Source: Oculatellaceae cyanobacterium Prado106
Lineage (GTDB): Bacteria; Cyanobacteriota; Cyanobacteriia; Elainellales; Elainellaceae
DNA: 37,932 bases
Direction: 5' to 3'
NCBI GenBank assembly: GCA_025454315.1
Contig: JALOOP010000054.1
Location: 1 to 37,932, forward strand
Shown here: piece by piece, positions 181 through 37,730 of the stretch
Layout of the letters: every line of letters begins with the position of its first letter
How positions within the stretch are numbered: the first letter of the stretch is position 1
The notes under the pieces: model-generated
Told to the model about the DNA's origin: nothing
The model's database searches: none
Seen by the model: the letters and a program-made list of their open reading frames with translations, nothing else
Program-made: the position numbers and the translations under genes

Positions 181-2124
181 CTAAGGTTGGGGTTGAGGTT
201 GAAAAATTTGTTGCATAATTTCTTCCTGTTGGCGTTGCTGTTGTTCTAGCAATTGCTGTTGCTGTTGAACGAGCAATTCCTGTTGCTTTTTAATCACCAA
301 TTCTAAGGCACTCTGTGCCAAAGGTTGCGCTGAATTCAGTGCCAGCGATGCTTCTAGAGTGGCTTTTGCATCGTCATAGCGCTGTAAATGAGCTAGCGTA
401 ATCCCCTGTCCAGTCAAGGCATTGACATTTTTAGGATCAAGCTCCACGACACGTTGATAGGAAGTCAACGCAGCCCCATATTCCTGGAGCGCATAGAGGG
501 CAGAACCCCGGTTATACCAGGCTTGAATCGAATCTGGATTGAGCCGAATAGAGCGATCGGCAGCCACGATCGCCTCCTCATACCGCTCCAAAGACCAGAG
601 CGTGACGCTCCGATTCGCCCACATTTCTGAGTTTTGGGGATCAATCCGAATCGCCTGATCGTAAGAGGTCAGGGCAGAATCGTAGAGTCCCATGGTGCGA
701 AGTACAGTAGCCCGATTCACCCAGGCTTGAGCATAGGTGGGGTTGAGGTCGATCGCCTTTTGAATGGCCACCAGCGCACCCGGATAGTCTTGCAAATACC
801 AGGCGATCGCCCCCTTATAGTTCCAAGCTTCGACATAGTCAGGATTAATGCCCACCGCCCGATTTGCAGAAGCCATGGCATCTTCGTATTTGCCCTGTCC
901 GGTGAGGGCGATCGCGCGTTGTGTCCAGGCTTCGGCAACACCATTTTCCCGCCAGGTGCCGTCTCCTTGAATCGCTTGTTCACAGGCGGCAAAAGCGGGT
1001 TCATACTGCTTGGTTTTATTCATCATGGTGCATTGTCCGACTAATGCCAGGGAATAATCAGCTTTGATTTGCACCGCCCGAGTATAGGAGGTCAACGCTT
1101 CTTCGTAACGCCGCAGTTTTTCCAGAACTTCACCCTGACCTGTCCAGGTGATGGCATCGTTGGGATCAATGGCGATCGCTTTGTCATAGGCGGCGATCGC
1201 ATCGGTAAACTGTCCCAGGCGCGTCAACACTTTACCCTGATTCGACCAGGCAAAAGCAGGCGATTTCTCGCCCCAGTTGCCATTTCCGGCGATCGCATCC
1301 AAACAATTGCCCGCCGCTTCATCGTACTGCACCAGTTCCGTCAACGCAGCACAGCGATGGGCCAGGGTAATCGAGTCTTCGGGTTCTAATAGGAGAACGC
1401 GATCGTAGGCAATCACGGCCTGCTCATAGCGAGTCATCTGCGCCAAAATGGTCCCGCGATGCAACCAGGCCAAGGCAGGCGATCGCCGTCCCCAAGATCC
1501 GCCCACTCTGAGGGCTTCCGTGCATTGATCCAAGGCTTTTTCGGTATCATTCAGCGCTTCGTAGGCCATGCATTTGTAAGTCAAGGCCAGGGAATTTTCT
1601 GGGTCAAACAACAAGGCTTGATCTGCGGAGGCGATCGCATCAGGATAGTTCTTGAGCTTCAGTAAAATTTCACTGCGATCGGCCCAAGTCGCGGAGTCCT
1701 CGGGTTCAAGGGCAAGGGCTTGCTCACAGGCTTCTAGGGCTTTGTCATAGATGCCCGCATCGGTTTGCAGGTGACAAAGATTCGACCAATAGGTAAAGTC
1801 TTCGAGCGTCTCGAAGGTTTCGCTCCTAGCGAGGAGGGGGGAAGGGGAAGGGGAAAGGGGGAAGGGGGAAAGGGAGGTCTTTGACTGAATTCTTGAAAAA
1901 ATCGAAGAAGTTTCTCCCGTTCTCTCGTTTGCACCTGTTTCATTCCTTCCATCGATGAATCCAAGATGCCACTGTTCTCCCCACTCCCCACTCCCCACTC
2001 CCCCCACCCCAAGCCCCACGACCCCCGCCCCCCACCCCCCACCCCCCACCCCTAGAAGGTCGAGGAGAATTTGAGGACATGGTGGCGATCGCAGCACTAG
2101 GAAAAGCAAGGGCAACCACCACAA
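181..2124 (-). CDS. TPR-repeat protein with a repeat-disrupted N-terminus
   Basis: This is a protein of tandem tetratricopeptide repeats, about a dozen units from roughly residue 115 to 615, with the usual W/Y..G/A..A....A and NP motifs (for example DPENSLAL, NPDYVEAW). TPRs form helical scaffolds for protein-protein contacts, and the partner is unknown. The C-terminus is Gln-rich (residues about 617-647). The frame opens with a TTG at 2124, and residues 25-100 are low complexity: Gly-rich, then Ser/Pro-rich. Those residues are encoded by GGGGAGT-type and GGGGAAA-type heptamer arrays. A much better signal peptide lies just upstream in another frame (see 1940-2269). I infer that the native secreted protein was broken or made switchable by the arrays. 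The TPR core is certain, the start is not. Confidence 0.8.
   Translation of the reverse strand: MWWLPLLFLVLRSPPCPQILLDLLGVGGGGWGAGVVGLGVGGVGSGEWGEQWHLGFIDGRNETGANERTGETSSIFSRIQSKTSLSPFPLSPSPSPLLARSETFETLEDFTYWSNLCHLQTDAGIYDKALEACEQALALEPEDSATWADRSEILLKLKNYPDAIASADQALLFDPENSLALTYKCMAYEALNDTEKALDQCTEALRVGGSWGRRSPALAWLHRGTILAQMTRYEQAVIAYDRVLLLEPEDSITLAHRCAALTELVQYDEAAGNCLDAIAGNGNWGEKSPAFAWSNQGKVLTRLGQFTDAIAAYDKAIAIDPNDAITWTGQGEVLEKLRRYEEALTSYTRAVQIKADYSLALVGQCTMMNKTKQYEPAFAACEQAIQGDGTWRENGVAEAWTQRAIALTGQGKYEDAMASANRAVGINPDYVEAWNYKGAIAWYLQDYPGALVAIQKAIDLNPTYAQAWVNRATVLRTMGLYDSALTSYDQAIRIDPQNSEMWANRSVTLWSLERYEEAIVAADRSIRLNPDSIQAWYNRGSALYALQEYGAALTSYQRVVELDPKNVNALTGQGITLAHLQRYDDAKATLEASLALNSAQPLAQSALELVIKKQQELLVQQQQQLLEQQQRQQEEIMQQIFQPQPQP
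1833..2055. repeat. Foldback heptamer element A, inside the TPR gene 5' region
   Basis: A G-rich arm (GGGGAAG/GGGGAAA units, 1836-1887) is followed by a spacer of about 90 bp and a C-rich arm of CCCCACT units (1977-2055). The two arms have different units here, so pairing is imperfect. The element overlaps the N-terminal coding part of the TPR gene. Confidence 0.7.
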
Positions 2125-6122: not shown

Positions 6123-6270
6123 GATGGGTCAACTCCTTCGCTACAGTGAATTTCTTTGAGATCTTGCATCCTAATGGACTTGACAACTGCGATCGTCCAT
6201 CACAAGTTCCAGGATAGGAGCAAATTTAGAAAAATGACCACTGTTCTTTTGGGGAGGAGGGCAGTGGGCC

Positions 6271-6455
6271 AAAGGGGAAAGGGAAAAGGGGAAAGGGTTG
6301 ACCCAGAGACAACAGAGATAAAACTTCGAGGATGTTCTCAAACAAGCAGCGGCTTGTCCCTACAGGAGCGATGCTGTAACCTCAATGGCGACAGCTACAA
6401 AGAACTTCCCCTTTCCCCTTTCCCCTTTCCCCCTTCCCCCTTCCCCCTTCCACCT
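6271..6455. repeat. Foldback heptamer element C
   Basis: G-rich arm 6271-6297 (GGGGAAA, GGGAAAA), spacer of about 108 bp, C-rich arm 6406-6455 (CCCCTTT then CCCCCTT units). The arms are complementary and could form a long hairpin. The element lies between the phasin-like gene and ffs. Confidence 0.75.
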
Positions 6456-6525
6456 TCCATCAAAATTGCCGAGGAGACAGCCACAGCATCCCCTCGGCAG
6501 ATTCAGAATCGATTTAAAAACAGGA

Positions 6526-6677: not shown

Positions 6678-8937
<2,260 letters not shown>

Positions 8938-13618: not shown

Positions 13619-13778
13619 ACGGGGAGGGGGGAAAGGGGAAGGGGGAAGGGGGAAAGGGGATGTCTTGGAGGATCTCTTTGGGGAATGTCGATGACAGATT
13701 TCAATGTGACACCTGGTGAGTTCCAAGGTTCTATCGATGAAAGCCCTTTCGCCTTTTCCCCTTCCCCTTTCCCCTTCT
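13619..13778. repeat. Foldback heptamer element E
   Basis: G-rich arm 13619-13660, spacer 13661-13744, C-rich arm 13745-13778. It lies directly upstream of proB. The spacer is clearly related to that of element M at 37613-37690: both contain a GATCTCTT...GGGGA core, then ACAGATTTCA and TTCTATC in the same order. Confidence 0.8.
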
Positions 13779-15767: not shown

Positions 15768-15874
15768 TCACAGGCAAAAATTCCCGATCGCCCCAACGCT
15801 GCAATCTACAAAGCCGTCCAAGCTTCCCCTTTCCCCTTTCCCCTTTCCCCTTTTCCCTTTCCCCTTTCCCCCCA
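15738..15874. repeat. Duplicated C-rich arm unit entering the mutM 3' end
   Basis: Two tandem versions of a module of about 75 bp occur: AAGCCGTCCAAG(A/C)TTCCCC followed by a C-rich run, at 15734-15760 and 15811-15874. Each is preceded by a GATCGCCC(T/C)AACG-like stretch. The second run (CCCCTTT units) encodes the C-terminal tail of MutM. The motif CCGTCCAAGATTCCCC recurs at 27782-27797. Confidence 0.7.
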
Positions 15875-16718
15875 CTGGCTGACAATCAGGACAAAAATGC
15901 GCCGATCGCCCCGCCAGTTTCACCCGTGCGATCGGGGCACCGCAGGTTTGACAGGGTTGGCCTTCCCGGTCGTAGACCCAGGCGACATTGCCGTAGTTGC
16001 CATTGATGCCTTTGATGTCGCGGAAGTCGCTGAAGGTGGTGCCGCCTTCGCCAATACTGTCCTGGAGCACCTGGATGATGGCGGCGTGGAGGAGTTGGAT
16101 TTGCTTGGGCTTGAGGCTGGCGCAGTGGGTTTGGGGATTGATTTTGCTGAGGAAGAGGGATTCGTCGGCGTAGATGTTGCCGATTCCGGCGACGAGGGTT
16201 TGGTCGAGGAGGGCGTTTTTAATGGGACGCTGGCGATCGCGCAACCATCCCCGAAAGTACGGCACCGAAAACTCCGGCGAAAAAGGTTCAGGGCCCAGAC
16301 TGGCGAGAGTGGTGATGACTTGCTCTGGGGTTTGTTCCGGCGGCACCCACCAGATTTGGCCAAAGGTGCGCTGATCGACAAAGCGAAGCTCTTGGTTGTC
16401 GGCAAAGAAGAATCGGACGCGGCAATGTTTTTGCACGGGAGCATCCTGGGTACCCCACAGCAGTTGCCCCGTCATTCGCAGATGAACCCCCAGCCAGCCT
16501 GCGGCCTGGTTGTCTCGCACCAACTCAGCCAGGAGGTATTTGCCCCGTCGATGCCACTCCACTAGAGTCGTTCCCTGGATACCCGTAAGGAAATCGGTGG
16601 GGCGATCGGGGTGGGCGATGGTGCGATCGAGCAGGACAACACCCCCTTGAATCGTCTGATTCAAGGTCATTTGATTCAGTCCCCGGCGGACGGTTTCAAC
16701 TTCAGGTAATTCAGGCAC
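15768..16718 (-). CDS. mutM: Formamidopyrimidine-DNA glycosylase with repeat-encoded C-terminal tail
   Basis: This base-excision repair enzyme removes 8-oxoguanine and formamidopyrimidines and nicks DNA by beta,delta elimination. It has the catalytic N-terminus PELPEVE (GTG start at 16718, fixed by the required N-terminal Pro), HRRGKYLL with the conserved Lys60, and DQTLVAGIGNIYADE (H2TH). It also has the four-Cys zinc finger CQTC...CPDC (C256, C259, C276, C279). Family members normally end just after the last Cys. Here 36 extra residues (281-316) rich in Gly, Lys and Arg come from a CCCCTTT array. The core is intact, so activity is expected. Confidence 0.95.
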   Translation of the reverse strand: MPELPEVETVRRGLNQMTLNQTIQGGVVLLDRTIAHPDRPTDFLTGIQGTTLVEWHRRGKYLLAELVRDNQAAGWLGVHLRMTGQLLWGTQDAPVQKHCRVRFFFADNQELRFVDQRTFGQIWWVPPEQTPEQVITTLASLGPEPFSPEFSVPYFRGWLRDRQRPIKNALLDQTLVAGIGNIYADESLFLSKINPQTHCASLKPKQIQLLHAAIIQVLQDSIGEGGTTFSDFRDIKGINGNYGNVAWVYDREGQPCQTCGAPIARVKLAGRSAHFCPDCQPVGGKGKGKRGKGKGERGSLDGFVDCSVGAIGNFCL

Positions 16719-18190: not shown

Positions 18191-18731
18191 GGGCAGAATA
18201 CTATCGAATGTTTGAATGTTGAAGTTCAATAAAAACGGGTCAAAATTTACCCTGTCGAATTTTAAGCGCAAATTTCAACGCAAAGACGCGACAAACCTAT
18301 CCCAAGGATGAGCCATTCGCTTCCCTAGTATCTCACTTTCAGCCCTCAAGGGGATGTAAGAAGGGGAAAGGGGAAGGGGGAAGGGGGAAAGGGCGATCAG
18401 TGCGCTGAGTCATGGAAGGTCATGGAAAAGGTTATAGAATCTGTCCCAAGCTGCGGCAGTCGTAGAATTTCCTAGAAAAACTAGGACACTGCACCGAGAC
18501 ACCCCCTTCCCCTTTTCCCTTTCCCCTTTCCCCCTCCCCCCTCGCCTGCCGATCGTCCATCAAATGTGCTACTTGTATTCATATTGTGTTGGGAGTGTAT
18601 CCCTTTTTGGATGCCGATTTGAGGCTGAAATGCTGCATTTCTTGGACTGCTTGAAACGCGGCTGATGGCTCTACAATCCGCTCACGACGCGCTTCCGATG
18701 ACCTCGCACTTTAGGCCAGTGTTTTAATTCG
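18191..18731. other. menA-menF divergent intergenic region
   Basis: Promoters for both directions must lie here, but no clear -35/-10 pair was assigned. It contains foldback heptamer element G. Confidence 0.5.
18361..18543. repeat. Foldback heptamer element G
   Basis: G-rich arm 18361-18393, spacer of about 110 bp (including the direct repeat TCATGGAA ×2), C-rich arm 18502-18543. It lies between the divergent menA and menF genes. Confidence 0.75.
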
Positions 18732-20204
18732 ATGCTATGTCAGCCTTCGATTTCCGCCCTCAGTTCCCCTCGGGATTGTAAACAGCTTTATCAATTTCTT
18801 GATTTTTGTAAACAACAATCTCTTCAGGATCGGCATTCTAAAATTGCCAGCATTGCGCTGGAAGTGCCCTGCCTAGATCCGCTGGTGGTCTTGCAGCAAT
18901 GGAGTCGATCGGATCAGGTTCATTTCTATTTTGAAAATCAGGATGCGGAGAAGGCGATCGCCGCCATAGACGCTGTTTCCCTGCATCAAGCTGACGGATC
19001 TCAGCGATTTGTTGCTGCCCAACAGTTCACCCAGGACTGTATGCAACATTTCATTACCAACAGTCATCCTTCGCCTTGGTCAACGCCTCGCTTTTTTTGT
19101 AGCTTCACGTTTTCTGACCAATCGGATAGCAGGGCGGATGCGATATCCCATGATTCCCGTTCCTTTGCGAGGTCGGGTGGATTTGCGGCGGGGACGGTTT
19201 TTTTGCCCAAGTGGCAGGTGATGCGATCGCACAACCAGAGTATGGCGATCGCCAATCTCAGCATCCATCGACAATCCAACATTGAGCAATTAACCCAAAA
19301 GATTTGGCAGCAGTTTCAGCAACTCTGTGCGCCCCAGTATTCGCTGCTGCATTTCCCTCAGGGAATGCCTCCATCCCTGGAACCGCGTCAACCCTGGCAG
19401 ATGGGCAATGTGGACAATTTTCGGACAGCGGTGGTGGGTGCGCTGCGATCGATTCAAGCCCAGCAGCTTCACAAGTTGGTGTTGGCTCATGCCGTTGATG
19501 TCACCTCGTCGCTGCCGTTTCAGGCGGTGCCTTCGCTGCATAATCTGCGACAGCGGCATCCGGACTGTACAGTGTTTTCGGTGGGCAATGGTCAGGGACA
19601 AAGCTTCATTGGAGCTAGCCCGGAACGGTTGTTGAGTCTGCATCAGGGACGATTGGTTACCGATGCGCTGGCAGGTTCGGCTCCCCGAGGAAAAACCATG
19701 GCCGAGGATGATGCCTTTGCCCAACGGCTGATGCAGACCGACAAGGAAAGACGTGAACATCAAGTCGTGGTGGATTTTATCGCTCAGCGGCTGGTACAAC
19801 TGGGGTTGCAGCCCAAATACGCCTCCAGCCCCAAGATTCTGCCGCTCTCCAACATTCAGCATCTCCATACGCCGATTCGCACCCTGGTTTCCAACCCCAT
19901 CCATCCGTTTAAGATTTTGGCTGAACTGCATCCTACGCCTGCCGTTGCCGGAATGCCCCGCGATATTGCCTGCCAGCATATCCAGCACTATGAAAAGTTT
20001 GGGCGATCGCTCTATGCTGCTCCCCTCGGCTGGCTCGACACCCAAGGCAACGCCGAATTCGTGGTTGGCATCCGGTCAGCCCTCCTCGACGGTCACCGTG
20101 CCCGCCTCTATGCCGGAGCCGGAATCGTCGCCGGGTCAGACCCCGATCGGGAGTTGGCCGAAATCAAGCTCAAGTTTCAAGCCCTGTTGCAGGCACTGGT
20201 CTAA
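18732..20204 (+). CDS. menF: Isochorismate synthase
   Basis: It converts chorismate to isochorismate, the first committed step toward phylloquinone. The C-terminal chorismate-binding domain (about residues 235-490) has GASPERLLSL, TDALAGSAPRGKT, the HLHTPI segment, ELHPTPAVAGMPRD, YAAPLGWLD and AGAGIVAGSDPDREL with the Mg-binding Glu. The N-terminal half is variable, as usual. The length of 490 is typical for cyanobacteria. menD follows 71 bp later in the same direction, so an operon is likely. Confidence 0.95.
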   Translation: MLCQPSISALSSPRDCKQLYQFLDFCKQQSLQDRHSKIASIALEVPCLDPLVVLQQWSRSDQVHFYFENQDAEKAIAAIDAVSLHQADGSQRFVAAQQFTQDCMQHFITNSHPSPWSTPRFFCSFTFSDQSDSRADAISHDSRSFARSGGFAAGTVFLPKWQVMRSHNQSMAIANLSIHRQSNIEQLTQKIWQQFQQLCAPQYSLLHFPQGMPPSLEPRQPWQMGNVDNFRTAVVGALRSIQAQQLHKLVLAHAVDVTSSLPFQAVPSLHNLRQRHPDCTVFSVGNGQGQSFIGASPERLLSLHQGRLVTDALAGSAPRGKTMAEDDAFAQRLMQTDKERREHQVVVDFIAQRLVQLGLQPKYASSPKILPLSNIQHLHTPIRTLVSNPIHPFKILAELHPTPAVAGMPRDIACQHIQHYEKFGRSLYAAPLGWLDTQGNAEFVVGIRSALLDGHRARLYAGAGIVAGSDPDRELAEIKLKFQALLQALV

Positions 20205-20275: not shown

Positions 20276-22108
20276 ATGTCGATTGATTTTCGCAATTCCA
20301 ATACTCTCTGGGCTTCGGTTCTAGCCGAAACGCTGCATCGCTTAGGCTTGACCACAGCGGTGATTTGTCCTGGCTCCCGCTCGGCTTCTCTGGCGATCGC
20401 CTTTGCCCAACATCCCGCGATCGAAGCCATCCCCATTTTGGACGAGCGATCGGCGGCTTTTTTTGCCCTGGGAATCGCCCGTCGTTCTGGCGTTGCGCCC
20501 GTCCTGGTCTGCACTTCGGGCACTGCCGGAGCTAATTTCTATCCAGCCATCATCGAAGCGAGAGAGAGCCGTCTGCCGCTGTTGGTATTGACCAGCGATC
20601 GCCCCCCTGAACTGCGCGACTGCAACGCCGGACAAACCATCGATCAACAAAAACTCTTCGGCACCTTCCCCAACTGGTACAGCGAACTCAGCCTCCCTAG
20701 CCCGGATTTGCAGCAACTCGCCTATCTCCGTCAAACAATCCTGTACGCCTGGGAGCGATCGCACTATCCCGTCCCCGGTGTCGTCCACCTCAACCTTCCC
20801 CTACGCGACCCGTTGGCTCCTATTCCCCAGGCTGAAGTGGGGGCGATCGCCGATCGGTTTCCGAGTCATTTCTTCGACCACATTCAGGGAAGGGAAAAGG
20901 CGAAAGGGGAAAGGGAAAAGGCGAAAGGGGAAAGGCGAAAGGCGAAAGGGGAAAGGGAAAATCCTTTACTCATTTACCCATCCACCTATCCACCCATCCA
21001 CCCATCCACCTCCCGCACGCTTCTGATCGCGGGGATTGATCAGCCGATTCATCCTGAAGAATACTGTGATGCGATCGCCCATCTCTCCAAGACACTCAAC
21101 GCGCCTGTCTTGGCGGAAGCATTGTCCCCAATAAGGAACTATGCCAGCCTGAATCCCCAGTTAGTTACCACCTATGATTGGATACTTCGTGATCCGCAAT
21201 GGGCTGAACAGTTTGCTCCAGACTGGGTGATTCGGGTGGGGGAAATGCCGACGAGTAAGACGTTGCGGCGTTGGTTGGAGGAAACACAGCCGCTGCAATG
21301 GGTGATTGATCCGGGCGATCGCAACCTTGACCCGCTCCACGGCAGAACGGTGATGATTCGGCGATCGCTCCCTGAAGTTGCCGCCAGTTTTTCTATTGAG
21401 AACGACGGTGGGAATGACGGGGACAATTCTCAGGAGCAGCGGCAGTATTTGCAGGCATGGGGTGAGGCGGAGCGGCGGGTGAGGCGATCGCTGGATTCTA
21501 CTTTGAGCCAGACCGAGACTTTCTTTGAAGGGAAGGTGGCTTGGATGTTGTCGCGATCGCTGCCCCCTGACACGCTCCTGTTTGTCGCCAACAGCACGCC
21601 GATTCGGGATATGGACTGGTTCTGGTGTCCGGGCGATCTTCGCATTCGGCCTTTTTGCAATCGGGGAGCCAATGGCATTGATGGCAATCTTTCCACGGCG
21701 CTGGGGATTGGCTATCGACAGGTGGAGTCGGCGGTGTTGCTGACGGGCGATTTGGCGCTGTTGCACGACACGAATGGGTTTTTGATCCATCCTCGATTTG
21801 GGGGGCATTTGACGATCGTGCTAATCAACAATAATGGGGGCGGCATTTTTGAACATTTGCCGATCGCCCAGTTTGATCCGCCCTTTGAGGAATTCTTTGC
21901 AACGCCTCAGAATGTGGATTTTGCTCAGCTATGTGCAACTTATAACGTTAAGCATGAGCGGATTGAATCCTGGAGGCAATTGGAGGAGCGGGTTAGCCAG
22001 TTATCCGGTGAGGGGATTCGGGTTTTGGAGGTGGGGTGCGATCGCAAAGCCGATGCCCAATGGATCAAGACCCATCTCGCCGCAATTTTGCATCCTCATC
22101 AGGAATAA
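20276..22108 (+). CDS. menD: SEPHCHC synthase (MenD) with an in-frame heptamer insertion
   Basis: This thiamine-diphosphate enzyme condenses isochorismate with the succinic-semialdehyde unit from 2-oxoglutarate. Visible features are ICPGSRSASLA, DERSAAFFALG with the cofactor-activating Glu57, TSGTAGANFYP, DRPPELRDCNAGQTIDQ, and the C-terminal ThDP site LTGDLALLHDTNG then INNNGGGIFE. Residues about 205-246 (GREKAKGEREKAKGERRKAK and a Pro/Ser-rich stretch PSTYPPIHPST) are encoded by GGCGAAA/GGGGAAA heptamers and a CCACCCAT array. They sit between the first and central domains, where a loop could be tolerated. At 610 residues it is longer than usual for that reason. Confidence 0.95.
   Translation: MSIDFRNSNTLWASVLAETLHRLGLTTAVICPGSRSASLAIAFAQHPAIEAIPILDERSAAFFALGIARRSGVAPVLVCTSGTAGANFYPAIIEARESRLPLLVLTSDRPPELRDCNAGQTIDQQKLFGTFPNWYSELSLPSPDLQQLAYLRQTILYAWERSHYPVPGVVHLNLPLRDPLAPIPQAEVGAIADRFPSHFFDHIQGREKAKGEREKAKGERRKAKGERENPLLIYPSTYPPIHPSTSRTLLIAGIDQPIHPEEYCDAIAHLSKTLNAPVLAEALSPIRNYASLNPQLVTTYDWILRDPQWAEQFAPDWVIRVGEMPTSKTLRRWLEETQPLQWVIDPGDRNLDPLHGRTVMIRRSLPEVAASFSIENDGGNDGDNSQEQRQYLQAWGEAERRVRRSLDSTLSQTETFFEGKVAWMLSRSLPPDTLLFVANSTPIRDMDWFWCPGDLRIRPFCNRGANGIDGNLSTALGIGYRQVESAVLLTGDLALLHDTNGFLIHPRFGGHLTIVLINNNGGGIFEHLPIAQFDPPFEEFFATPQNVDFAQLCATYNVKHERIESWRQLEERVSQLSGEGIRVLEVGCDRKADAQWIKTHLAAILHPHQE
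20887..21013. repeat. Foldback heptamer element H inside menD
   Basis: The G-rich arm 20887-20960 consists of GGGGAAA/GGCGAAA/GGGAAAA heptamers. The short spacer is followed by a C-rich run of CCACCCAT-type units (20975-21013). Three heptamers make 21 bp, so it encodes a charged 7-residue peptide repeat and keeps the menD frame. Confidence 0.8.
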
Positions 22109-23217: not shown

Positions 23218-23530
23218 AGATGCATCTCCGAATGGGAAACGTTGATTAGCTTATCGCAAGTTTGGGGAGTGGGGTGTGGGGAGTGGGGAGTGGGGAGTGG
23301 GGAAATGGGGAAGGGGAAAAGGGGAAAGGGATTACATTGAGTAAGTTTTTGAATGAATTTTTGAAGGAATCTTTGAATGGATCTTTGAAGGAGCCTTAGA
23401 GAATTCTCATTTTTGCCTTCATGGATCAATTCCAAGCAGCCACCCCAAATCCCCCTTTACCCATTCCCCATTACCCCTTCCCCTCTCTGCGTCTCTGCGT
23501 CTCTGCGCTCACAAAGGATCGGCATAGACG
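23218..23530. other. Intergenic gap filled by a foldback element and octamer array
   Basis: This gap lies between the unknown gene and the symporter. Element I (23263-23484) and a CTCTGCGT octamer array (23485-23510) occupy nearly all of it. Part of the spacer is a loose TTTTGAA(T/G)GA(A/T) direct repeat, four copies at about 23345-23396. Confidence 0.65.
23263..23484. repeat. Foldback heptamer element I
   Basis: The G-rich arm 23263-23330 changes from GGGGAGT units to GGGGAAA units within one array. The spacer is about 108 bp, and the C-rich arm 23441-23484 is degenerate (CCCCATT, CCCCTT). The two unit types side by side show they belong to one element family. Confidence 0.75.
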
Positions 23531-25376: not shown

Positions 25377-25628
25377 GAAGCTGTCCTCAATCCCAACGAC
25401 AATAACCTCGTTCTAGTCAAGGTCATCCTCCCTCCCAACGACGATAAACCCATTTCAATCAAGGTCATCCTCCCTCTCAATGACGAGGATCTTGTTTCAA
25501 TCAGAGTTATCCTCGCTTCCAATGACGATAACCTCGTTTCAATCAGGGTTAACCTCCTTCCCAGCGACGATAACTTGGTTTCAATCAGAGTCATCCTCAC
25601 TAAAATTCTGGATAACCTCCCTCCAAAC
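25377..25628. repeat. 42-bp tandem repeat, about six copies
   Basis: Four clear units start at 25419, 25461, 25503 and 25545, with diverged units before and after. Each has the pattern (A)GGTCATCCTCCCTCCCAA then CGACGATAACCTCGTTTCAATC. The period is a multiple of three and both strands stay open: minus reads 14-residue units like MTLIETRLSSLGGR, plus reads SIRVILxxNDDNLV. Confidence 0.9.
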
Positions 25629-25631
25629 TAG

Positions 25632-25750
25632 AATCACCCCACTCCCCACTCCCCACTCCCCACTCCCCACTCCCCACTCCCCACTCCCCACTCCTCCCCA
25701 CTCCCCACTCCCCACTCCCCACTCCCCACTCCCCACTCCCCACTCCCTCC
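25632..25750. repeat. CCCCACT heptamer array (STRR1-like)
   Basis: Nearly perfect CCCCACT units run for about 118 bp, with one TCCCCACTCCT interruption. The unit resembles the short tandemly repeated repetitive (STRR) heptamers described in filamentous cyanobacteria. The minus strand is a run of GGGG blocks separated by 3 bases, a canonical G-quadruplex pattern. Confidence 0.9.
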
Positions 25751-25903: not shown

Positions 25904-27691
25904 ATGCGAACTCATTACTGCGGTCAACTCCGAGCCGAACAGGTTGGTAAAACGGTAACCCTCTTTGGTTGGGTAGACCGACGGCGGGATCATGGCGGCG
26001 TGATTTTTCTGGACTTGCGCGATCGCACAGGGATCAGCCAAATTGTCAGTGACCCTGAGCGAACGCCAGACTCCTGCGAGATCGCAGGCGATCTCCGCAA
26101 CGAGTATGTCGTCAAAGTCACAGGACGGGTGACCAAACGTCCCGACGAATCCCTCAATCCGCGCATTCCCACCGGGGAAGTGGAAATCTACGCCGATCAG
26201 ATTGAACTGCTCAACGCGGTTCGCAAACAGTTGCCCTTCCAAGTTTCCACCTCAGAAACCGAGTCTGTGCGCGAAGACTTGCGCCTCAAGTATCGCTATC
26301 TGGATTTGCGGCGGGAACGCATGGCCAAAAATCTTCAGTTGCGCCACCAGGTGATTCAGTCGATTCGGCGATTCCTCGAAGATCAGGAAGGCTTCATTGA
26401 GGTCGAAACCCCGATGCTGACTCGCTCCACGCCAGAAGGGGCGCGGGACTACCTGGTACCCAGCCGCGTTAACCCTGGTGAATTTTACGCGCTGCCCCAG
26501 TCGCCCCAGTTGTTCAAGCAACTGCTGATGGTGTCGGGAGTCGATCGCTACTACCAAATCGCTCGCTGCTTCCGCGATGAAGACCTGAGAGCCGATCGCC
26601 AACCCGAGTTCACCCAACTCGACATGGAAATGAGCTTCATGAACCAGGCCGAAATCCTGGAACTCAACGAATCCCTCGTTTGCCACATCTTCAAACAAAT
26701 TAAAGGCATCGATCTGCCCCGTCCCTTTCCCCGATTAACCTATGCCGAGGCCATGGATCGCTACGGCAGCGACAAACCCGACACCCGCTATGACCTGGAA
26801 TTGGTGGATGTCTCAGATCTAATGCAGGATTCCGGCTTCAAGGTGTTTTCAGGGGCGATCGCCAGCGGTGGCATTGTCAAAGTCCTGCCCATTCCCGGCG
26901 GCAACGACGCGATTTCCAATGTGCGAATCAAGCCCGGTGGCGATTTATTCAAAGAAGCTAGCGATGTCGGAGCCAAAGGCTTGGCCTACATCCGAGTCCG
27001 CGAAGACGGCGAAATTGACACCATCGGAGCCATCAAAGACAACCTCAGCGAAGCCCAAAAGCAAGAACTCTTGCAGCGCACCGGGGCACAGGCCGGATCG
27101 CTGCTGCTCTTTGGCGCAGGCGACACCCCAACGGTCAACAAAACTCTCGATCGCCTCCGCCAAGTCATCGCCCGAGAACTGGGACTGATCGACTCGGAAA
27201 AGATCAATCTCCTCTGGGTCACCGAATTTCCCATGTTTGAGTGGAACGCCGACGAAAAACGCCTGGAAGCCCTCCACCATCCCTTCACCGCCCCCTACCC
27301 CGAAGATGCCCATGACCTGAAAAACGCCCGCGCCGAAGCCTATGACCTGGTGTTCAATGGCTTTGAAGTGGGCGGTGGCAGTCGGCGGATCTATCAGCCC
27401 GACCTCCAGCAGCAGGTCTTTGAAGCGATCGGCCTCTCCACCGAAGAAGCCCACAACAAATTCGGCTTCCTCTTAGAAGCCTTCGAGTACGGCACCCCGC
27501 CCCACGGCGGCATCGCCTATGGACTCGATCGCCTGGTGATGCTCCTGGCCGGAGAAGAGTCAATCCGAGATGCGATCGCCTTCCCCAAAACCCAACAAGC
27601 CCGCTGCCTCCTCACCAACGCTCCCTCCGAGGTCGATACCAAGCAGCTCAAAGAGTTGCATATTGCCAAGATCGAGAAGCCTGGGAAGTAG
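25904..27691 (+). CDS. aspS: Aspartyl-tRNA synthetase
   Basis: It charges tRNA-Asp (possibly also tRNA-Asn, see below) in the cytosol. The N-terminal OB-fold anticodon-binding domain is MRTHYCGQL...[20 protein letters not shown]. Class II motifs are motif 2 ([24 protein letters not shown]) given by its key parts [14 protein letters not shown], and motif 3 GLDRLVMLL. The bacterial GAD insert lies at about residues 285-420. The length of 595 residues is normal for bacteria. The TAG stop overlaps the first unit of a heptamer array, with no room for a conventional terminator before it. Confidence 0.97.
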
Positions 27692-29562: not shown

Positions 29563-29801
29563 AAGCATAAGGTGAACCCTCCTGTAGACCAAGGAACAGG
29601 CTCAGAAATAGACCTAAAAGATAGGCCTAAAAGACAGGCCTAAAAGACAGGAGGGGAGACAACTTGCAGGAACGGCAATGGTCTGATGTCAGGATTAGTA
29701 ATCAAGCGATGAATCAGCAAGGACAAGACCTTGACTCGACTCAAAACAACCCCAAGGGCATGTGCTGTCGCAATATCTTGAATGCCTCCAGAACGTCATA
29801 G

Positions 29802-29876
29802 GATGCTATTGAAGGGGATGCTATTGAAGGGGATGCTATCGAAGGGGATGCTATCGAAGGGGATGCTATTGAGGAT
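29802..29876. repeat. 15-bp tandem repeat, five copies
   Basis: Units GATGCTAT(T/C)GAAGGG begin at 29802, 29817, 29832, 29847 and 29862. The period is a multiple of three. Confidence 0.9.
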
Positions 29877-30874: not shown

Positions 30875-31074
30875 AACAAATTCCTCCTAATGTCCTCTCT
30901 GATCTCTCCTCTCCGATGTCTCCTCTCCGATATCTGCTCTCTGATGTCTGTTCTTGCGTGATCCCATTCTAATAGAGAGGCATGGAGGCGGAGTCTCAGT
31001 ACCCGATGGCAACTGATTAGAAAGATAACTACAAAAGTACGGAGGCGCTTTCCAGAAAGGAATGAGGCGAATTC

Positions 31075-31195
31075 TGGGAGGGTTAATGCTGAGAGGGGTA
31101 ATTCTGGGAGGGTTAATTCTGCGGGGGTAAGTTCTGCGAGGGCTGATTCTGCGAAGGCGGGTTCTGCGAAGGCGGGTTCTGCGAAGGCTGAGGCT
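31075..31195. repeat. 15-bp tandem array spanning the DUF2993 gene stop codon
   Basis: Units of the form GG(T/C)TCTGCGAAGGCG / GGTTAATTCTGGGAG run from 31075 to about 31195. The right half encodes PSQNP repeats; the left half lies beyond the stop at 31113. Confidence 0.8.
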
Positions 31196-31976: not shown

Positions 31977-31977
31977 G

Positions 31978-32181
<204 letters not shown>

Positions 32182-32188
<7 letters not shown>

Positions 32189-33747
32189 CGAATTAGCTGC
32201 CGCACCAACTGCGATCGCTCCTTGCTCAACCGACTCAGATCGGGGCTGGCTCTGCCGATAATGTGGCCTTGCACATAGCGAATGCCTAGGCGGTACAGTT
32301 GGCCGAGGGAGATGGGGCTGTCTTGGTCGAAGCCTTCGACGACGACTTTGGGGGCACGGAGGCGGGTGCTGCTGGCCAAATCGACGACAAAGCGGAGGGT
32401 GATTTCGCTGGCTTCGCGGCCTTGGTAGAGGAGATCGCGATCGATTTTGACATGGGAGGGGTTGAGTCCGGTGAGACGGGAGACGGAGGCATGACCAGCG
32501 CCAAAGTCATCGACGGAAAAGCCGATCTTTAAATCTCGGACATATTGACCCAGGTGTTTTTTGAAGCTTTCGATGGTGACCTCTTGACCATTGGGCATGT
32601 AGCTAGGTAAGGGAAGTTTTTCGGAGATTTCTAGAATCAGCTTTTCGGGCTGGATCAGTTTGTCCGTAATCACCTGCTGCAATGCCTCAAAGTACCGCTC
32701 CTGGGTCAGGGATGGGGGATAGACATTGACCGAGAGATCGCGCAGGTCTTCTTGGCGACGGCCAAAGGGAAACTGGCAGGCATTACGGTAGCTGCGAACG
32801 GCTTGTCGGACAAAGAAGGCATCGAGTTCGACCATGAAGCGATCGCCCCACAGTTCCGCTGCCGAAAACAGATCGATCGGCGCACAGTCTTGAATGGGAT
32901 CGCGCGCTAAAGCCTCCCAACTGTCAATGTAGGGATAGTCGGGATCAAGCCGCAGCACGGGTTCAAAGTAGACCAGCATCTGGGAGAGGCGATCGCAAAA
33001 TAGCTCAAATCGACGTTGATAGAGCGCCGCAGGCACCCAGCCATAAACCCGGCAAAGGTCATCAAGAATCGTCGCTTCAATCAACGCGGGGGAGATCTGG
33101 GTCAGTTCCTCGGTTGCCCAATACAGCGAGAGAATCATCCGGCTAAACACCTGGCTTAGCGCCAGCGAGTTGGGCGGTAACCCCCAAATCGCCATAAACC
33201 CATAGCTGGGATGGGTAGGCAACGGCAACAGCACCATTTGCTTGGCAACCCCAGCCACTTCGTAGCTGCGATAGCCGCCTTGTTGCAGCGGTTCCCCCTG
33301 ATCGTCTCGGTTAGGATGGCTAGGGTGAAAGGGGTTGAAACGCGCCGCTTCGGTATGCTGGGGGGGAGTCAGCAGTTGAGACGAGAGCAGTTGGGCGGAA
33401 AGATGGCTGATCATTTCGGCCAGAATGCCATCTGGTAAGGGCTGGTCGGTCTGAACGGGGCTTTCGGCATACTTGAGCCAGTGGTGGCGATCGGCTCTAA
33501 AGACCGCCACTCCGTCGGCCTGGAGCGATCGCCGCACCCCCTCCAAAATCTGCCCGGACACGACAGCGGTTGCCCCCTGGGACAAGGTCTGTTCGGGGGA
33601 AGCTATTGCCGCCGAATTTGTTGCCGATGAATTTGTCCCCAGCAAACCCACCATCGCTTGAATTAGGGGAGTGTAGGGTTCTAAAGGGTGATTCAGCGGC
33701 GTTACATTGAATGCTGGTTGAGGAGCGGTCACAAGAGGATCAGTCAC
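32182..33747 (-). CDS. EAL-domain protein with N-terminal GAF-like region
   Basis: The protein has 521 residues and a GTG start. The N-terminal half (about 25-215) looks like a GAF-type sensor (SLQADGVAVFRADRHHWLKY, QMVLLPLPTHPSYGFMAIWG). The C-terminal EAL domain (about 250-505) keeps the key residues: EAL at 278-280, N341 in LSVNVYPPSL, E373/E376 in LEISE, the metal-binding D413-D414 in DDFGAG, K434 in VKIDRDLL, E471 and Q493 in VQGHIIG. Cyclic-di-GMP phosphodiesterase activity is therefore plausible, although the EAL surroundings are diverged. There are no membrane segments. Confidence 0.87.
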
Positions 33748-34650
33748 AATTGCAATTCCATATCACCCGAAATTTATCAAGTCGCGATACCAGCGACCTT
33801 TAGGGAAATCACCCTAGAGAAAATGCCTTTGGGAAAAATTAACCTAAAAAGTCGTCTGTCGGACCTTCGATCGCAATAACCTGAATTTGGAGAAGGGGGA
33901 ACTTCAAGCTCTAGAAATTTCTGGCTTTAGGAGTTAATCAGAGGCATGAATCAGAGGCGTTAATCAGCTTTGTTCTATTGAGTATCCGTTCTATTGAGTA
34001 TCCGTTCTATTTAGTATCCATCGTAGCGGCGAAATAAACTCACCCTCATTTTCATGTCAGTTGACCCATACCCATCCGCTCATACCCGTTCACTCAGGCG
34101 AGTTGACTCGTTCGAGTTAACCTTTGCAGACTGCTATTTTTTGATGTGTTACCGAACTTACTCAGTGTGACACTAATTACTCATGGTGAGCGCACCGTAG
34201 AGCATTTCTTTGCAATTTCCCCATTTTTCACACCAATCCAACTTAAAGAACGGAATCTCGCAATATTACTTGACAGTACGATTATTACCTGAATGAACAG
34301 AATCGGTCGCTCCACGCTCTAGATTCGGTGAACAGGGCGCAATTGAGTTTTGCACAGATGGATGGATGCCTATCCGGCGATCGAAAACGATCCAAAATTT
34401 CCCACCTGGGAATCACTCAAAAGTAGGTAATTGCACGGGTTCGTGGAATCTTAGATCGTCAATTTTAAGCAACGAATTTAATCCCTCTCGTTGTAGAGTG
34501 AAGGGCGATCGGTAAAATGGTCAGGATGCTTATCACATCGCATCGGTGATCTCCATCACTGCGACTCGATCCGTTTCGATTCGCCTATGCGATTTATCTA
34601 TGCGATTCGCCTATGCGATTCACTTGGACGATTCACTTGGAACAGTCATC
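33748..34650. other. Long intergenic region with short tandem repeats
   Basis: Three 16-bp units GTTCTATTGAGTATCC lie at 33972-34019, and short GATTCGCCTATGC / GATTCACTTGG repeats at 34570-34642. The latter are directly upstream of the PhzF-like gene. There is no gene, tRNA or convincing promoter. Confidence 0.6.
33972..34019. repeat. 16-bp tandem repeat, three copies
   Basis: GTTCTATTGAGTATCC twice exactly, then once with TTAG in place of TGAG. Confidence 0.9.
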
Positions 34651-37560: not shown

Positions 37561-37730
37561 GAGTGGGGAGTGGGCGAAGGGCGAAAGGGGAAAGGGAAAA
37601 GGGGAAAGGGGATATCTCAGAAGATCTCTTAGGGGATGTCTATTACAGATTTCACTGTGATACTCAGTCAACCCCAAGATTCTATCCAAGTCCCCCCTTT
37701 CGCCTTTCCCCTTTCCCCTTTTCGCTTCTT
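37561..37730. repeat. Foldback heptamer element M
   Basis: The G-rich arm 37561-37611 mixes GGGGAGT, GGCGAAA and GGGGAAA units. The spacer 37612-37690 is related to that of element E, and the C-rich arm 37691-37730 has CGCCTTT/CCCCTTT units. It fills the gap between the lipoprotein gene stop and the stop of the last minus-strand frame. Confidence 0.85.

Follow-up and report, generated by a model that had tools for sequence, protein, structure and literature searches.

Arrays of tandem heptamers in cyanobacterial genomes, some of them inside genes, are already known from work on the STRR sequences, whose units are GGGGA(C/T)T in Nostoc and GGGAATC in Xanthomonas; in Nostoc PCC 7120, 68% of these repeats are intergenic (PMC4692102). 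The published repeats have a preferred orientation: on the sense strand they tend to lie no farther than 50 bp from stop codons, and on the antisense strand in the 50 bp that precede an ORF. They are under-represented on the coding strand (PMC4692102). As cited in PMC2858038, Vioque (1997) placed STRR sequences inside the cyanobacterial RNase P RNA gene. TAACTGA heptamers are also dispersed and shared by cyanobacteria, and tolerance between the parts of modular proteins has been suggested (PMC4679880). In-frame repeats are likewise known from Rickettsia, where palindromic elements (RPEs, or protein-coding MITEs) lie both between genes and in frame in conserved proteins, and where the gmk enzyme that was tested stayed active (PMC2229807, PMC10969869).

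The DNA that we analyzed, here called the window, is a 37,932-nucleotide stretch of the Oculatellaceae cyanobacterium Prado106 (contig JALOOP010000054.1). On its forward strand, menD (20276-22108), a gene of the vitamin K pathway, encodes 2-succinyl-5-enolpyruvyl-6-hydroxy-3-cyclohexene-1-carboxylate synthase as a single open frame of 610 aa, preceded on the same strand by isochorismate synthase (menF, 18732-20204; TIGR00543, 326 bits), which belongs to the same pathway. The menD product belongs to TIGR00173, with 453 bits against a curated cut-off of 244, and Pfam finds the three expected domains in order: the first (pyrimidine-binding) domain TPP_enzyme_N (20312-20653, residues 13-126), the central domain TPP_enzyme_M_2 (21056-21586, residues 261-437), and the C-terminal domain TPP_enzyme_C (21689-22024, residues 472-583). 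In a 52-sequence alignment that includes the window's MenD, every family-invariant residue is kept, among them E57, R109, Q120, R444, G491-D492, and N518-N519, and the top PDB match of the AlphaFold model is MenD 2x7j (TM 0.84). We searched the genome (7.5 Mb in 609 contigs) for a backup copy, and found one full-length MenD match and no second.

Between the first and central domains, 42 in-frame residues (205-246; GREKAKGEREKAKGERRKAKGEREN-PLLIYPSTYPPIHPSTS) are encoded by a repeat tract at 20888-21013, the first codon of which starts at 20888. The tract begins with a purine arm (20888-20961, forward strand) of degenerate heptamers, (GGSGAAA)n, in which GGGGAAA, GGCGAAA, and GGGAAAA units are read as (KAKGERE)n; continues through a T-rich junction of 14 bases, TCCTTTACTCATTT (20962-20975, forward strand); and ends in a pyrimidine arm (20976-21013, forward strand) of ACCCATCC and ACCTATCC octamers, (ACCCATCC)n, read as IYPSTYPPIHPSTS. 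TRF reports period 21/7 at 20890-20961 (score 130) and period 8 at 20976-21010. This periodicity is far beyond chance: in the best stretch of 65 positions, 55 match at period 7, where 1000 dinucleotide shuffles of menD reached no more than 35, and none of 1000 shuffles equalled the octamer part.

The original prediction had described a heptamer element of about 42 residues lying in frame at this place, and TRF, Pfam, and the codon layout bear out both its coordinates and its description. The Pro/Ser stretch that it noted beside the heptamers exists, yet is not mere flanking sequence, being itself the octamer array read as HPSTHPPI. Because of this second array, the proposed rule that only changes of three heptamers keep the frame is incomplete; the menD frame is kept whenever the change in heptamers equals the change in octamers modulo 3, as when one of each is gained (+15 bp). 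We think that the tract is probably a tolerated copy of the genome's own composite repeat, lodged in a disordered, length-tolerant loop between two domains of the enzyme.

In most respects the arrays of this genome resemble STRR sequences (PMC4692102): they are G-rich tandem units of 7 bp, dispersed and mostly intergenic, and genome-wide they show the preferences of that class for non-coding DNA and for a G-rich strand that points away from genes. They differ in their units (GGGGAAA, GGCGAAA, and GGGGAGT), and the menD copy differs further in being a composite, with a period-8 array and a junction, that can be traced as far as the protein sequence of a named enzyme, in having its G-rich strand as the coding strand, and in lacking the at least four quadruplex-forming G-tracts that are a preference, rather than a strict criterion, of the class. 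The STRR sequences of RNase P RNA, insofar as they are described in the citing paper, are likewise heptamers tolerated in an essential gene, but one that specifies a structural RNA and not a protein frame. The menD-type composite is like the RPEs in occurring both between genes and in frame in conserved proteins. RPEs, however, are palindromes of about 100-150 bp with a defined sequence, whereas the menD tract is a pair of simple, variable-length arrays whose arms differ in unit and length, with neither terminal inverted repeats nor a stable palindrome. Finally, the TAACTGA unit contains a stop in the forward direction (PMC4679880), whereas the units described here are stop-free in all six frames. 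We rejected the idea of a special stop-free design, as roughly one heptamer in two has this property, and among heptamers containing 4-5 G/C the share is 70%. Within the open-licence literature, where older work may be missed, three features appear to be new: a composite of two arrays that is read in a protein frame, the recurrent occupation of a single MenD loop by repeats unrelated to one another, and a near-absolute order of paired arrays.

The repeat family is abundant in this genome. A 21-mer of the mixed heptamer type, AAAGGGGAAAGGCGAAAGGGG, has 214 exact sites, and a 19-mer of the octamer, ATCCACCCATCCACCCATC, has 433, counting overlapping sites within one array. A GA-type 23-mer, GGGGAAAGGSGAAAGGSGAAAGG, occurs 807 times, and we found no copy in 59 relatives, all of other genera, 35 of them of the same family and none congeneric. 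Because the 23-mer is absent from these relatives, the burst of GA heptamers is probably younger than the split of the genera, the alternative being loss in all of the others. In 80 contigs picked by number (875 kb) we found 194 period-7 arrays, chiefly of the GGGGAAA and GGGGAGT types; with genes predicted by a simple hexamer model rather than a published gene finder, 152 of them lie outside genes, 29 across a gene end, and 13 fully inside a gene. Their density is 608/Mb in non-coding and 21/Mb in coding DNA, about 29-fold rarer in the latter, and the G-rich strand reads away from genes in 146 arrays against 16 (genome-wide, the menD copy apart). A quadruplex motif is present in 181 of 239 intergenic arrays as opposed to 6 of 13 in-gene arrays (p 0.04), the latter being a small sample that was partly picked by likeness to the menD tract.

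These figures bear on the idea that the tract is a slippage switch, in which menD would lose and regain its frame as units come and go, and the supply of phylloquinone would vary from cell to cell (phase variation). As neither 7 nor 8 bp is divisible by three, most single-unit changes would shift the frame, and the arrays are near-perfect in places. The menD heptamers, on the other hand, are degenerate, with three variants interleaved. Degenerate units normally stabilise a repeat array. Because of this degeneracy and the strong depletion of arrays from coding DNA, we regard a switch as very unlikely; moreover, the published survey found heptamer-associated genes to be random over functional classes and did not identify a regulatory role (PMC4692102).

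The composite is not peculiar to menD. In a sample chosen partly by likeness to the menD peptide, four or more other genes of this genome carry the same composite (GEKAKGE... followed by HPSTHPPI...) in frame, and in-gene copies are found chiefly in linkers, loops, or tails. In one histidine kinase (L111) it separates the response-regulator domain (650-762) from the Hpt domain (868-950); in a ligase (L113) it lies between the adenylation (enzyme) and carrier domains; in a second histidine kinase (L114) it occupies a loop inside HATPase_c, which Pfam splits into two stretches; and in a STAND/WD40 protein (L193) it lies in the N-terminal part. The C-terminal tail of an endonuclease III (L125) consists of heptamers without octamers. 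In the window, the C-terminal tail of a formamidopyrimidine-DNA glycosylase (15768-16718, reverse strand) is comparably encoded by a heptamer array (15824-15871). We also note a TPR protein (181-2049, reverse strand) whose predicted N-terminus is encoded by heptamer arrays (1837-2052) and whose true start is probably downstream.

The same in-frame composites speak to a possible error of assembly or sequencing, for which one could point to a draft genome of 609 contigs with many repeats. An imperfect repeat of about 126 bp is below the usual read length, the open frame is unbroken with conserved domains on both sides, and equivalent composites stand in frame in several other genes; an artefact is therefore extremely improbable.

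By sequence and by junction, the menD tract belongs to the genomic family. Compact composites have two junction types, and the menD copy carries one of them (TTTA..CTCAT), the type TTTATACTCAT of the intergenic copies L118, L130, and L116. This shared type argues that the two menD arrays may have arrived as a unit, or at least by a process common to the intergenic copies. We rejected a transposable element with a fixed core: the paired arrays often enclose unrelated spacers of about 100 bp, and it is only the compact composites, not the longer G-to-C pairs, that share junctions.

Paired arrays follow a strict order. Among pairs no more than 400 bp apart in the window and the sampled contigs (L115-L210), the G-rich array precedes the C-rich array in 91 and follows it in 1; for the contigs picked by number alone, the counts are 53 and 0. 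Shuffled array labels never gave more than 41 G-then-C pairs. In 400 kb of Nostoc sequence (L251-L270), where the units are different, we counted 21 pairs in this order and none in the reverse. Since strand reversal preserves a G-then-C order, the order is a property of the pair and not of gene direction, and the compact composite of menD represents such a pair in shortened form. Unstranded intergenic pairs in the window, all G-rich and then C-rich, lie at 6267-6461, at 8625-8881 (including the longest array of the window, 8748-8881), at 13621-13776, at 18361-18546 (by TRF, G-rich arm 18361-18396 and C-rich arm 18502-18546), and at 37572-37729, and further pairs of the same order lie at 23263-23483 and 31977-32191. 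The window holds other repeats as well. Upstream of a class II tRNA synthetase gene (25904-27691), five copies of a 42-bp unit (25384-25598) are followed by a 110-bp CCCCACT array (25637-25747), and tandem arrays of 15-16 bp units, unrelated to the heptamers, lie at 29801-29872, 31070-31188, and 33972-34019.

The order of the arrays agrees with the published orientation bias and is sharper than it (PMC4692102). It is a constraint on the spread of repeats that is cheap to test, and any model of their origin must account for it. One speculative model, which we consider a long shot, is that the arrays are scars of an unrecognised form of end-healing, in which the 3' ends at a break would be extended with G-rich repeats and then joined, much like fused telomere ends. 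Two observations suggest it: the strict G-then-C order, which holds in cyanobacteria that are unrelated, and the replacement of the older menD linker, described below. If it were true, the menD tract would be one such scar, in which the frame was kept by chance.

Comparison with relatives shows how tolerant the MenD loop is. Between fixed anchors, the inter-domain linker has 72 residues in the window's MenD against a median of 54 in 109 relatives, 8 of which have a linker as long or longer. The entropy and gap profile of MenD peaks at residues 201-240. In 81-94% of relatives there is no counterpart of residues 211-230, and for the other half of the tract the positions exist in relatives with unrelated sequence. 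In the sister taxa L083 and L084 (support 0.987), the conserved flanks are about 74% and 62-63% identical to those of the window's MenD and the linker 17-20%; there, 50 and 54 residues stand where the window has 70, and the tandem tract is absent. The tract thus distinguishes the window's MenD from these relatives as predicted, and the relatives do not share a homologous linker of the same length, which would have counted against the prediction; their linkers differ in both length and sequence. The expectation of a clean insertion at an empty site, however, has to be given up, as the linker is hypervariable in all relatives and largely overwritten here. As judged from the alignments, the repeat appears to have replaced most of an older linker rather than split it, and for this reason would have lengthened MenD by only about 18-20 residues. 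We saw no target-site duplication at the menD tract, where the sister-taxon linkers are too divergent to define an empty site.

The AlphaFold model shows the MenD fold with confidence (mean pLDDT 86.5), and its lowest values, 47-52, fall exactly in the tract, at residues 211-240. A helix is predicted with low confidence at residues 206-222, which would leave room for a structural role. This helix, and a charged (K/E/R) fraction of 0.71 against 0.15 in the rest, might suggest that KAKGERE/HPSTHPPI is kept as a functional extension, be it for oligomer contact, for binding to membrane or protein, or for translation pausing on a G-rich mRNA. The peptide, however, is dictated by the DNA repeat and recurs in unrelated genes, and the peptides found there in other species are unrelated. 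As for the mRNA, the menD copy contains no canonical G-quadruplex motif (G3+N1-7), by which we set aside a quadruplex, and its RNA folds no better than shuffles (z 0.69), by which we rejected a hairpin. A functional extension is, in our judgment, highly improbable.

Repeats of other kinds have settled in the same loop elsewhere. Period-7/8 tracts occur in the linker segment of 14 of the 109 relatives, as opposed to 4 hits in total in 11 other gene segments, and correspond to about 9 changes on the tree. Linkers of Nostoc and Calothrix carry (CCCCATT)n, which has 26-62 exact tandem-unit sites in those genomes. The linker of L053 carries (GGGAATC)n, which at no more than one mismatch is confined to a single genomic place, presumably menD itself, with two hits that overlap on one contig. 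In L082, of the same family as the window's organism, the menD linker (about 71200-71330 of G007:C82) has GGAATCA and then CCCCCTT arrays, again G-rich and then C-rich, and both units are nearly private to menD in that genome, so that a genome-wide repeat is not supported as their source. In Microcoleus, the MenD linker holds a palindrome, CCCCCCTTGTTAAGGGGGG, read as PPSPPLLRGGVG, which at up to two mismatches has tens to hundreds of copies per Microcoleus genome and about 27-28 in unrelated genomes, counts in which some sites of this near-palindromic sequence are scored on both strands. In a second MenD loop, near residue 377 of the window's MenD, the reverse palindrome is read in frame as VPPLSKGGLGGV in Microcoleus and Tychonema (L019, L022, L025, L026, L027, L051, and L079), in up to several copies. 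At least two loops of MenD, therefore, are open to repeats.

The near-confinement of the L082 heptamers to menD shows that such tracts also grow locally, with no need for a genome-wide burst. The tract in the window's menD might accordingly have begun as a chance seed that slippage expanded in place, the linker being fast-evolving; its likeness to the genomic repeats would then reflect a shared mutational bias rather than transfer, and the repeated rise of period-7/8 tracts with different units in this linker fits such an origin. It is hard, however, to obtain both repeat families, in fixed order and with a junction of the intergenic type, from independent local growth. Mainly on account of L082 we give local growth some weight, while considering it unlikely for this tract.

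A tolerated copy of the composite repeat remains our preferred explanation. A composite of the kind that fills the intergenic spaces would have come to lie in the MenD linker, replacing most of it, and, being stop-free, would have settled at a total length that keeps the menD frame. It would be translated into a charged and largely disordered segment that leads into a Pro/Ser/His stretch. It would have no active part to play, and would persist because the loop tolerates almost any sequence. We infer that the protein is made and active and that the tract probably arrived by copying or recombination from elsewhere rather than by local growth; its recency and neutrality are likewise inferred, from comparison at the level of the family. 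Because unrelated repeats have settled at the same spot of menD in other cyanobacteria, it looks more like a place where repeats can land and be tolerated than like a switch. Unrelated genome repeats have entered this one loop of a conserved enzyme on several occasions among cyanobacteria, and MenD is thereby an experiment of nature in which the passage of simple DNA repeats into protein can be followed.
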